Part shown: positions 17,136 to 19,400 of the stretch, one piece after another
Numbering within the stretch: position 1 is the first letter of the stretch
Layout: every line of letters starts with the position of its first letter
Assembly: GCF_001311985.1 (NCBI RefSeq)
Contig: NZ_BBCJ01000018.1
Coordinates: forward strand, 1-64,000
Length of the DNA stretch: 64,000 nt
From: Geotalea toluenoxydans JCM 15764
GTDB lineage: Bacteria; Desulfobacterota; Desulfuromonadia; Geobacterales; Geobacteraceae
Direction of reading: 5' to 3'
The notes under the pieces: generated by a model
The model's input: the letters and a program-made list of their open reading frames with translations, nothing else
What the model was told of the DNA's origin: nothing
Databases searched by the model: none
Program-made: the position numbers and the translations under genes

Positions 17136-17669
17136 TCATTCTTCAGGGATTTCCTCATTCTTGAATGAGAAATAGAACCCCAACAAGATCGAAACCGCGA
17201 TGATTAACACTCCCAACCCGTGAACGGCATTGCCGATAGTCTTGTCGTAAGCGAGAATATTAAATTTCAGCAGCAACCAATTCCAGTCGTGTATCCCCTC
17301 TCCCCCGCCGATATTCACCAGCGGTAATTCCATGACCGCCGCATCCTTGATGTAGACCGACATGTTGAACATGTTTTGTCCAAGCCAGAAGAGGATCACA
17401 GTAGCGGAAAAGAATTCACGTTTCCGGATGAAGTAGGAGCCGATTCCTACCGGTACTAGGAGTTGTCCCAGAGTTCCGCCGATGACCATGAGAAACTCAC
17501 CAAAGTATCCAAATAGAAGGTGCCCTGCCTCATGGGCGATAAGGTCCACTCTGTCGAGAAAACTTCCCTCTTCCGCGCTCCGCGCACAAATAAAACCGTA
17601 AATCACCAGTAGGACAGTGAAGGTTGCCCTTAGGTAATTCAGGGACCTTTTTGCTGTAGTTGCGGCCAT
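17136..17669 (-). CDS. Small M50-like membrane metallopeptidase
   Basis: 177 residues with about five membrane segments. Segment one (TFTVLLVIYGFICA) is followed by the zinc motif DLIAHEAGHLLFGYFGE with His46-Glu-Ala-Gly-His50, as in site-2-protease-like M50 proteins. A later polar/aromatic stretch, GIHDWNWLLLKFNILAYD, may provide the third zinc ligand (Asp). The start is set at 17669 because AGGTGA lies just upstream; the frame extends nine codons more. No PDZ domain is present, so it is a minimal member. Substrate unknown. It follows the exported hypothetical gene by 23 bases and precedes dacB by 35, so all are probably one operon. Confidence 0.72.
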   Translation of the reverse strand: MAATTAKRSLNYLRATFTVLLVIYGFICARSAEEGSFLDRVDLIAHEAGHLLFGYFGEFLMVIGGTLGQLLVPVGIGSYFIRKREFFSATVILFWLGQNMFNMSVYIKDAAVMELPLVNIGGGEGIHDWNWLLLKFNILAYDKTIGNAVHGLGVLIIAVSILLGFYFSFKNEEIPEE

Positions 17670-17692
17670 TGTTTCACCTATGCGATGGGAAG

Positions 17693-18543
17693 TCACGGCA
17701 GCGCGATATCCCTCAGCTTGAATGGCACCTCCGCCAACGCCTTTTCGGTCCCAATGAAGATTCGCAGTTGCGCATCCGACGGGAGGGGCTTGCTGAACTT
17801 CAGGACCTTCACCCCTTCCGATGTCATCGACCCTGAGTCTGCATTACGTTACCCTTGCCGTCCAGGACCTCAATGTCGATCAGCTTCTCCGCCGGGTCCG
17901 CCAATTTGAAGATCACGTCATGTTCACCCACTTCGAGAAACATACCCATGAACCCTTCAACCATCTGCATCATTGCGCCCGAAAGTCCCTCTTTAGCCCC
18001 CTCTGCTCGAACCCTCTCCTCTTCCTGGCGCTTGACCGTCGCATTGTAATCCGCTTTAGTCAGCACCGTCACCTCGACCCGTGCCTTGGCTAGAGATACA
18101 GCCCCGAGAGGTTTCCCGGCTTTCGCCAGAAACCCTTTCACCACCACAATCGATGCTGGATCACGTTCCGGCATGAAAAGTTGCAACTCACCGGACAGCT
18201 CGCTCACCACTGCCGCCTTGCGGGCCGGGTTCTTCAGTTTCAGGGTCACCTCGGCCAGTCCGGATGCGGCATCGCGGAAAGGCTCGAAAGACGCGGTCTG
18301 TCCCTCTTTTTTCAGGATGCTTCGTCCGGTGCCGTCGATCGCTGTGGTGAACGTGGTTTTCACTCCCCTGATGGAAGGTACGTCATCTCCGGTCAGCTTG
18401 AGCTTGATTTCCAATTCGTTTAAAAACTGGCTGGTCGAACGGCTGTCCTTCACCTCGCCCACCGATACCTGTACATCTGCGGCATGGAGTGCTACAGGCA
18501 AAAAGAACATGATTGCGAGGACGATTACGCTATTGACCTTCAT
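17693..18543 (-). CDS. Exported protein of unknown function, frameshifted near its end
   Basis: About 283 residues. Signal peptide MKVNSVIVLAIMFFLPVALHA, then a beta-rich body (VQVSVGEVKDSRSTSQF, KTTFTTAIDGTG). A helical Gln/Glu/Arg stretch follows (TVKRQEEERVRAEGAKEG), and then MMQMVEGFMGMFLEVGEHDVIFKL. Near 17838 a one-base slip hides the last ~45 residues, which read SMTSEGVKVLKFSKPLPSDAQLR and end FKLRDIALP. AAGAGGG lies just before the ATG. I do not recognise the family. It sits between the thiol oxidoreductase gene and the M50-like gene. Confidence 0.6.
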
Positions 18544-18588: not shown

Positions 18589-19400
18589 CTATTTCCTCAA
18601 CTCGGCATCGATCATCAGGGAGAACCCTTCCAGGCTCCTGTCCCCAAGTTCCTTGCCGTTGACGAAGATGGTCGGTGTTCCGCTTACTTCGTTGTCTTTT
18701 CCCTCGGCAATATCCCGATCTATTATTCTCTGGATTGCCGGGTCCTTCAGTTTTTCATTGAACTTGTTTAGGTCAAGCTTCAGTTCTTTAGCCAGTTCCT
18801 GAATTTTCTGATCGTTAATATTCCTAGAATCGAACAGTTTATGGTGGAATTCCCAGAATTTTCCCTGCTCCTGGGCCGCCAGGGCAGCGGTCGCCGCCTT
18901 ACGAGCATGGCTATGGAACGACAAAGGGTAATTCTTAAAAACGAGCTTCACTTCTTTTGGATACTTCTCCAGCACCTGCTGGAGTAGCGGCTCAAGTCGG
19001 CCGCAATACGGTCATTGGTAGTCGCTGAAGACGGCTACCACCACTTGGGCGTCAGGTGGCCCCTTGTAGGGAAGCCCTGATAAGTCGAGTGTTTTCTTCA
19101 CCTCGAAAATACTCAGTGACGTGTCCTTACTGCTAGAGAGCAGGAACGATTTCCCTTTACCAGCGACTGTAAAATGATCAAACTTGCGATCAATCGGCAT
19201 GAAGTCAACAACGCGGTTTTCTGCTTGGGAGAAAACAAGGATCTTCCCGGGAACGAGGATATAAACGTTCTTCCGTCTGGGGCAGAGACCATTGCAATTG
19301 GTGAGGCTTCAAGGTTTATCTGATTTTTCAGCGTCCATTCCACGGAAGCATGTGCCAACGTAGGCAGAAACAATAGAACTAAAAATAGATACTTCCTCAT
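18589..19400 (-). CDS. Exported DsbA/thioredoxin-fold protein, candidate selenoprotein (UPYC motif)
   Basis: About 270 residues, with signal peptide MRKYLFLVLLFLPTLAHA. A one-T loss near 19275 joins FISS... to YILVPGKILVFSQAENRV. The N-terminal part is a small beta domain. The thioredoxin-fold part begins GPPDAQVVVAVFSDYQ, then reads TGA-Pro-Tyr-Cys-Gly-Arg-Leu-Glu-Pro-Leu at 19014. Homologous proteins have C-x-x-C here, so TGA stands exactly where the catalytic nucleophile belongs. After it the frame stays open for about 140 codons with conserved DsbA-like text (LVFKNYPLSFHSHARKAA, GTPTIFVNGKEL with cis-Pro). Two hairpins follow the TGA. It likely handles disulfides or peroxides in the periplasm. 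If Sec is not inserted, the product would be truncated and inactive. Confidence 0.8.
18967..19014 (-). promoter_or_regulatory. In-frame UGA codon with candidate bacterial SECIS hairpins
   Basis: The UGA is at 19014-19012. Counting from the base after it, bases 28-45 (18984-18967) read CTCCAGCAGGTGCTGGAG. This forms a perfect 7-bp stem with loop AGGU, the same loop start as the E. coli fdhF SECIS. A second hairpin, GCGGC-8 nt-GCCGC, occupies bases 8-25 (19004-18987). Both lie within the usual 16-37 base range for the apical loop or just short of it. Which one works cannot be decided here. Confidence 0.6.

Follow-up and report, generated by a model that had tools for sequence, protein, structure and literature searches.

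A probable DsbA-like selenoprotein gene of Geotalea toluenoxydans with two conserved hairpins downstream of its UGA codon

A gene on the minus strand of Geotalea toluenoxydans JCM 15764, at positions 18589..19400 of the 64,000-nucleotide stretch of contig NZ_BBCJ01000018.1 that we analysed (the window), probably encodes an exported DsbA/Thioredoxin_4 oxidoreductase with a selenocysteine (Sec) nucleophile, in which UPYC stands for CPYC. Its in-frame UGA would be decoded by SelB and tRNA-Sec by way of a downstream mRNA element made of two hairpins; the distal one (hairpin B) is likely the SelB site and the proximal one (hairpin A) most likely a spacer fold, while a frameshift near the start of the gene is most likely an error. 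We put the probability of this reading at about 93%. Comparison of sequences establishes the equivalence of UGA and Cys at the active site, the Sec machinery of the genome, and the conservation and covariation of both hairpins, and on that basis Sec insertion at the UGA is near certain.

An in-frame TGA in a DsbA-like gene

The extent of the gene was determined from the frame translation, Pfam matches and alignment to L095, an intact homologue. Positions 19200 to 18589, reversed, read ...VFSDYQ-TGA-PYCGRLEPLL..., so that the in-frame TGA (19012..19014, minus strand), the predicted Sec codon, takes the first position of a UPYC active site. The initial annotation of this DNA, made from the letters alone, had noted a TGA in place of the nucleophile of a C-x-x-C motif and about 140 open codons after it. 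By frame translation we counted 140 sense codons between the TGA (19014-19012) and a TAG stop codon (18589..18591, minus strand), and the placement of the TGA was borne out by the homologues described below.

With the TGA read as Cys, the product matches two Pfam families well over their cut-offs: PF13462 (90.4 bits, cut-off 23.2, E 1.9e-25) and PF01323 (84.1 bits, cut-off 25.6, E 1.5e-23). The TP loop, GTPTIFVNG, lies before the last strand, and P115, C117 and P228 are invariant across 24 alignment rows. Inspection by eye revealed an apparent hydrophobic signal peptide, MRKYLFLVLLFLPTLAHA, at the N-terminus, and the product is probably exported; from its sequence we infer a function in thiol-disulfide redox chemistry. 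The best NCBIfam match, NF041057 (Rcas_1661 family thioredoxin-like (seleno)lipoprotein), has the thioredoxin-like domain in common with the window protein and was rejected, since its score of 64 bits falls short of the cut-off (190).

An N-terminal segment precedes the thioredoxin-fold domain in the window gene product. The AlphaFold model of an intact Cys homologue (L015), computed from a 24-row alignment with a mean pLDDT of 88, has a beta-rich region of seven strands in residues 18-82, followed by a thioredoxin/DsbA-like arrangement. The nearest solved structures were 3gyk (a thioredoxin-like oxidoreductase of Silicibacter pomeroyi), BdbD, alpha-DsbA2 and DsbA of Corynebacterium; ScsC ranked just after them. 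The DsbA-type fold is shared with 3gyk, BdbD, ScsC and alpha-DsbA2, whereas the N-terminal segment is not covered by the solved relatives found by sequence, all 30 of whose matched stretches begin at residue 59 of P0002 or later.

Cys or TGA at the same column in homologues

The codon at the Sec column was read from tblastn alignments of the read-through protein with homologous loci. A first set of 152 rows had TGT in 78, TGC in 52 and TGA in 22, and a second set of 51 further rows had TGA in 31, TGC in 14, TGT in 4 and TCA in 2. Removal of 6 duplicates left 197 distinct genes, with TGT in 80, TGC in 65, TGA in 51 and TCA in 1, that is, 145 Cys genes, 51 TGA genes and one Ser gene. Of the Cys genes, 79 (L016-L094) are a biased sample, as they came from a pattern search that had the Cys motif among its patterns; without them, the 118 genes from whole-genome searches comprise 51 TGA, 66 Cys and 1 Ser. 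The initial annotation had proposed looking in such an alignment for residues unrelated to Cys or Sec; the column holds Cys or TGA in 196 of the 197 distinct genes, and Ser in one.

TGA occupies this column in other assemblies as well, including the single-contig genome G018, and in two relatives within the same family (L002 and L003). In TGA genes of other genera, the reading frame is open on both sides of the TGA.

Two hairpins conserved downstream of the UGA

To place these genes relative to one another, we used a tree of 126 of them, made by a quick method from the domain only, with the Sec column masked as X and one gene of 28% identity (L004) excluded; its outgroup was not cleanly separated. 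The tree contains a clade of 87 rows (SH-aLRT 99) with 26 TGA genes, 60 Cys genes and one Ser gene. All 26 TGA genes have hairpin B. This set was first picked by hairpin B, and it equals the full complement of TGA genes of the 87-row clade; L129, which passed the loose hairpin-B filter, had been left out for its single-type SECIS and fell outside the clade in the tree made afterwards. For comparison we used 61 Cys genes picked by identity and coverage: L023, L205 and 59 of the clade's 60 Cys genes.

In the window gene, hairpin B (18967..18984, minus strand) spans nucleotides 28-45 after the UGA and reads CTCCAGC-AGGT-GCTGGAG from 18984 to 18967, which confirms the perfect 7-bp stem with an AGGU loop seen in the initial annotation. 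Among the 26 TGA genes, all seven pairs are formed in 20 and six of seven in the other 6, and the loop, AGGU in 18 and AGUU in 8, always lies at nucleotides 35-38. In 22 of the 26, hairpin A has a 4-nt loop and forms four or five of its five pairs in the register 12-16/21-25. It is off this register in L171, L178, L203 and the window gene, where RNAfold gave a 5-bp hairpin A (18987..19004, minus strand; nucleotides 8-25, GCGGC/GCCGC) in the shifted register 8-12/21-25 with a longer loop of 8 nt. The loop of hairpin A is variable, with 12 sequences among the 26 genes.

Both hairpins were compared with a null of 2000 random draws of synonymous codons, each of which preserved the proteins. In the 26 TGA genes, 87.7% of the cells of hairpin A and 96.7% of those of hairpin B were paired, against means of 48.8% and 62.2% and maxima of 60.0% and 70.9% in the resampled sets; none of the 2000 draws was as high. 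In the 61 Cys genes the values were 43.0% and 48.5%. The covariation score was 0.378, compared with 0.118 in shuffled alignments (0 of 500 as high) and 0.029-0.067 when the register was slid by 1-3 columns. Changes on both sides were found in 7 of the 12 pairs, a weaker measure than the others since 15 of 500 shuffles reached that count; three of the five pairs of hairpin A have compensatory changes. From the alignment alone, RNAalifold predicted all 7 pairs of hairpin B and 3 of the 5 of hairpin A. In register-free folding, the 26 Sec genes had mean z values of -3.17 (A region) and -3.50 (B region), and every gene was below -1; in the 61 Cys genes the means were -0.44 and -0.37, with 15 and 18 genes, respectively, below -1. 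These results demonstrate that hairpins A and B covary, far more strongly than codon resampling gives, and that the Cys homologues mostly lack them. Chance is thus excluded at the level of the family, as TGA stands at exactly the same column in 51 distinct genes and the pairing exceeds the codon-resampling null. Some of the compensatory changes swap residues, as with Gln to Asp together with Leu to Val between L001 (the window gene) and L096, which suggests that the protein is shaped by the RNA.

We then examined where else the element occurs, using a covariance model (R1) of nucleotides 10-54, TGA excluded, trained on the 26 TGA genes. Among the matches listed for 195 genomes of the class, seven scored above 50 bits, all in this DsbA-like family, and the next scored 25.9 bits; this search used stricter filters, and the matches listed do not include the members known from G181 and G182. 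Six of the seven listed have TGA in place and are all training sequences, whereas the seventh, from G192, has TGC and lies outside the training set. None of the 23 weaker matches examined has TGA at the expected place. At the SECIS place, four of the clade's 60 Cys genes scored above 25 bits (L159, 51.9; L217, 38.5; L184, 37.6; L151, 27.8), and part of these scores can come from shared protein coding. The best of them is the G192 gene (L159:1306-1362), in which TGC is followed by a complete two-hairpin element with 5/5 and 7/7 pairs and an AGTT loop. It groups with a TGA gene, L123 (SH-aLRT 98), and, judged from these sequences, looks like a Sec-to-Cys change with the SECIS still in place, a fossil SECIS. 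The Rfam model RF00031 had no match in the genome of the window, but likewise none in any of 14 controls, and so is no guide here; positions 18880-19080 searched against all Rfam families gave two matches, both far below their gathering scores, and no SECIS.

The frameshift and the quality of the assembly

The initial annotation had also reported a frameshift at about 19275. It is present in the assembly: the frame from the ATG at 19400 (MRKYLFLVLLFLPTLAHASVEW...PDG) aligns to residues 29-79 of L095 with 33% identity, and the frame from about 19275 (KNVYILV...) to residues 68-297 with 55% identity. Since the two frames match overlapping and collinear parts of this intact homologue, one base is missing within about 19271..19276 on the minus strand. 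The assembly (G000) is 84% complete in 77 contigs, and other genes in it are split as well: rpoB (C47:3599-7655) was matched in four stretches over three frames, one with an in-frame TAA, selA lies in two frames, and selB in three. These split genes make an error of sequencing or assembly the most likely cause of the frameshift near 19275. The assembly is indel-rich, and single bases in it are not fully reliable.

An in-frame TGA and a frameshift within one gene could also be two lesions of a decaying gene, the TGA being a nonsense mutation. We consider this extremely improbable, because the same TGA, flanked by open frames, occurs in other genera and is followed by hairpins that covary, and because the splitting of rpoB, selA and selB in the same assembly makes the frameshift no sign of decay; the 26 conserved TGA genes of one clade in effect refute it. 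The state of the assembly bears on a second alternative, that the TGA is a base-calling error for TGC or TGT. Cys is found in 145 of the 197 homologues, and the full element kept by the Cys gene L159 means that a hairpin alone is no proof of Sec. Yet the window gene has an intact hairpin B, which its Cys relatives mostly lack, and L002 and L003 of the same family have TGA too. A miscalled Cys codon is therefore very unlikely, and a Sec codon is the preferred reading of the TGA at 19012..19014.

Sec machinery in the genome

As suggested in the initial annotation, the genome was searched for the Sec machinery, and all parts were found. The tRNA-Sec (C6:138142-138235) scored 77.4 bits against a cut-off of 47. 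The two pieces of selA are each over the cut-off, and none of the three pieces of selB, in three frames, reaches it alone (best 194.1 against 242.25 bits). selD scored 392 bits and itself contains one in-frame TGA, reading CAG-U-AAK.

The nearest Cys homologue of the window gene (56%) comes from G248, an uncultured Geobacteraceae bacterium, and lies on the same contig as L015. In this 95%-complete draft, selA had no match and selB none over the cut-off, the best tRNA-Sec score was 41.6 bits against the cut-off of 47, and selD is without TGA. One genome with a TGA gene, G190, had neither selB nor tRNA-Sec over the cut-off; only the first 30 residues of its selB were matched, immediately following selA on C144, where the contig may end.

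Since Cys occupies the column more often than any other residue, the UGA might be read as Cys, or as another residue, by a suppressor tRNA rather than as Sec. A covarying hairpin at a fixed position is needed for decoding by SelB and not for suppression, however, and the set of tRNA-Sec, selA, selB and selD is present in the genome, whereas the draft of the nearest Cys relative shows no selA, and neither selB nor tRNA-Sec above the cut-offs. We give suppression hardly any weight, and expect Sec at the UGA, inserted by the cell's SelB and tRNA-Sec under the direction of the downstream mRNA element.

Geometry of the element among bacterial SECIS elements

The bSECIS limits given in the available text of PMC13188914 are a loop of 3-9 nt with G in its first two positions, a stem of 4-16 bp, a distance of 16-37 nt from the UGA, and an energy of at most -7.5. 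The window gene falls within them, with -11.3 kcal/mol, 34 nt, the loop AGGU and 7 bp. So do 23 of the 26 TGA genes of the 87-row clade, all with 34 nt from UGA to loop, the remaining three (L177, L202 and L204) missing the strict limits of energy or stem; only 5 of the 61 Cys genes fall within the same limits.

The 25 other DsbA-like TGA genes have a different geometry. Twelve are within the limits, all at 19 nt with a stem that starts at nucleotides 12-13, and 13 are outside, six having no hairpin by the rules and seven being short on energy. We also observed a separate clade of 21 DsbA-like genes (L125-L137 and L209-L216), all with TGA; in 12 of these 21 a single hairpin from nucleotides 12-13 is within the limits.

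We further examined 15 SelD genes with TGA from the class, a set from which one spurious match (L169:348-413) was left out. Eleven of them (L169, L170, L233, L236 and L239-L245) have a proximal and a distal hairpin, the distal loop lying 32-33 nt from the UGA, and in four (L234, L235, L237 and L238) the sole hairpin lies at 17 or 21 nt. In the register-free test, the proximal hairpin of the 11 genes had a mean z of -2.27 and was below -1 in all 11, and the whole stretch of nucleotides 1-48 folded only moderately better than the null (z -1.52 on average, 8 of 11 genes below -1). The fixed-register test of hairpin A in the same 11 genes gave no support (0.545 observed, 0.520 in the null). The SelD elements thus resemble those of the DsbA clade in that 11 of 15 genes have two hairpins, the distal one with a G-containing loop, but differ in that the distal stem starts at nucleotides 24-26, has 8-10 bp, and carries a 3-nt loop in 10 of 11. 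The R1 model does not recognise them. Seven FdhA genes, folded and inspected by eye, have G-loop hairpins near nucleotides 12-20.

The E. coli element is described in the accessible part of PMC8659212 as a 17-nt upper stem-loop, 11 nt from the UGA, with U17 in a bulge, and in that of PMC11431864 its upper stem-loop is said to recruit SelB. The initial annotation had likened the window hairpin to the fdhF SECIS. The likeness holds in part: both are mRNA hairpins just 3′ of the UGA with a small loop that has G near its start. The geometry of the E. coli fdhF type as given there (11 nt, bulged U17) does not hold for the window gene, whose perfect and unbulged 7-bp stem begins at nucleotide 28, 27 nt after the UGA, and in the DsbA clade a second conserved hairpin comes before the G-loop hairpin.

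A possible role for hairpin A

In 22 of the 26 genes hairpin A starts at the place of the E. coli stem-loop but has a variable loop, whereas hairpin B, with its conserved G-loop, starts 27 nt away; for this reason we take hairpin B (7 bp, with an AGGU or AGUU loop from nucleotide 35) as the likely SelB-binding hairpin and hairpin A as a candidate spacer clamp. Hairpin A, lying between the UGA and hairpin B, would fold away a spacer of about 14 nt and bring hairpin B to about 13 nt from the UGA, near the distance of 11 nt in E. coli. With hairpin A folded, the unpaired path from UGA to hairpin B would be 11+2 nt in the DsbA clade and about 11 nt in SelD. By analogy with the E. coli element, we propose the spacer clamp tentatively, at somewhat less than even odds.

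Alternatively, Sec is inserted at the UGA as proposed and hairpin A has no part in spacing, being kept by other constraints or as a general pausing structure. The unconserved loop of hairpin A, its shifted register in four genes including the window gene, and the fixed-register test in SelD are all consistent with this. Against it, the observed pairing of hairpin A was never reached by codon resampling of the same proteins (0 of 2000), three of its five pairs have compensatory changes, and its strength is near the null in Cys homologues; in addition, the register-free test backs a hairpin at the same place in 11 of the 15 SelD genes, namely the ones with their distal hairpin at 32-33 nt. We regard this alternative as a serious but rather doubtful one; hairpin A may still act in pausing.

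If hairpin A is a spacer clamp, SECIS elements may fall into two spatial classes, a division that we offer with the same reserve as the clamp. In the single class, the SelB hairpin would follow the UGA at about 11 nt. In the twin class, represented by the DsbA clade and many SelD genes of the class, a first hairpin would fill that slot and take up about 14 nt by folding; a second hairpin, to which SelB binds and whose loop lies at 32-34 nt, would thereby reach the same place on the ribosome. Such an arrangement, if true, would help to explain the span of 16-37 nt in the published bacterial SECIS spacing and would provide a rule for finding long-spaced elements, and the spacer device could be tested in an E. 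coli reporter.

Relation to known selenoproteins

DsbA-like protein form 1 (PF01323, UxxC) is a listed selenoprotein family in the available text of PMC13188914, DsbA-like UxxC selenoproteins are also listed in that of PMC9312934, and a DsbA-like family of 4 sequences stands in the family table of PMC1794560, as far as the table was available. The available part of the organism table of PMC1794560 has no DsbA-like selenoprotein under its three Geobacter genomes. The window gene has in common with this family, as these sources present it, the DSBA/thioredoxin fold, Sec as the first residue of UxxC, a TGA with a downstream SECIS, and occurrence in Deltaproteobacteria. On the strength of the Thioredoxin_4 and DSBA matches over the Pfam cut-offs, the UxxC motif and the Sec machinery, it is a member of the known DsbA-like UxxC selenoprotein kind, as the initial annotation had thought probable. 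The clade differs from the known family in its two-hairpin SECIS and, in one model, in a beta-rich N-terminal segment, the two having been compared through the available tables. No twin-hairpin SECIS was found among the matches listed in a literature search on SECIS structure and two-hairpin elements, though one may be in print, and a search on this DsbA group turned up no account of it.

To the DsbA-like selenoproteins already known, the window gene contributes a Sec/Cys pair that has switched repeatedly, and it illustrates how selenoprotein genes can go missing in annotation. With interspersed Sec and Cys members, one of which has a full two-hairpin element beside TGC, the clade is a good one in which to study the loss of Sec.

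Several single loci among the homologues are of separate note. In G653 (C1:1927785-1929432, L171), the gene is present in tandem copies, the first with TGA and the second with TCA (Ser-Pro-Tyr-Cys), and the Ser copy is followed by a weaker SECIS-like stretch of 31.2 bits with the R1 model. In G445 and in G294 (L205 and L206), two DsbA-like genes adjoin, of which one carries TGA and the other TGC. A Cys homologue in the single-contig genome G176 (L105, C1:986728-987231) has an in-frame TAG 3′ of the active site, away from the Sec column, and is possibly a pseudogene.

Gene neighbourhoods

In 15 gene neighbourhoods and that of the window, no neighbour gene recurred in more than three, so no partner is indicated; in 14 of the 16 the grouping did pick up the DsbA-like gene itself. 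A Pfam search with seven ORFs that lie near the gene in the window had a peptidase S13 as its sole match. On the minus strand of the window, at 17136-17696, we observed a membrane-protein-like ORF that has no Pfam match and carries an HEAGH motif; by eye, we take it to be peptidase M50-like.
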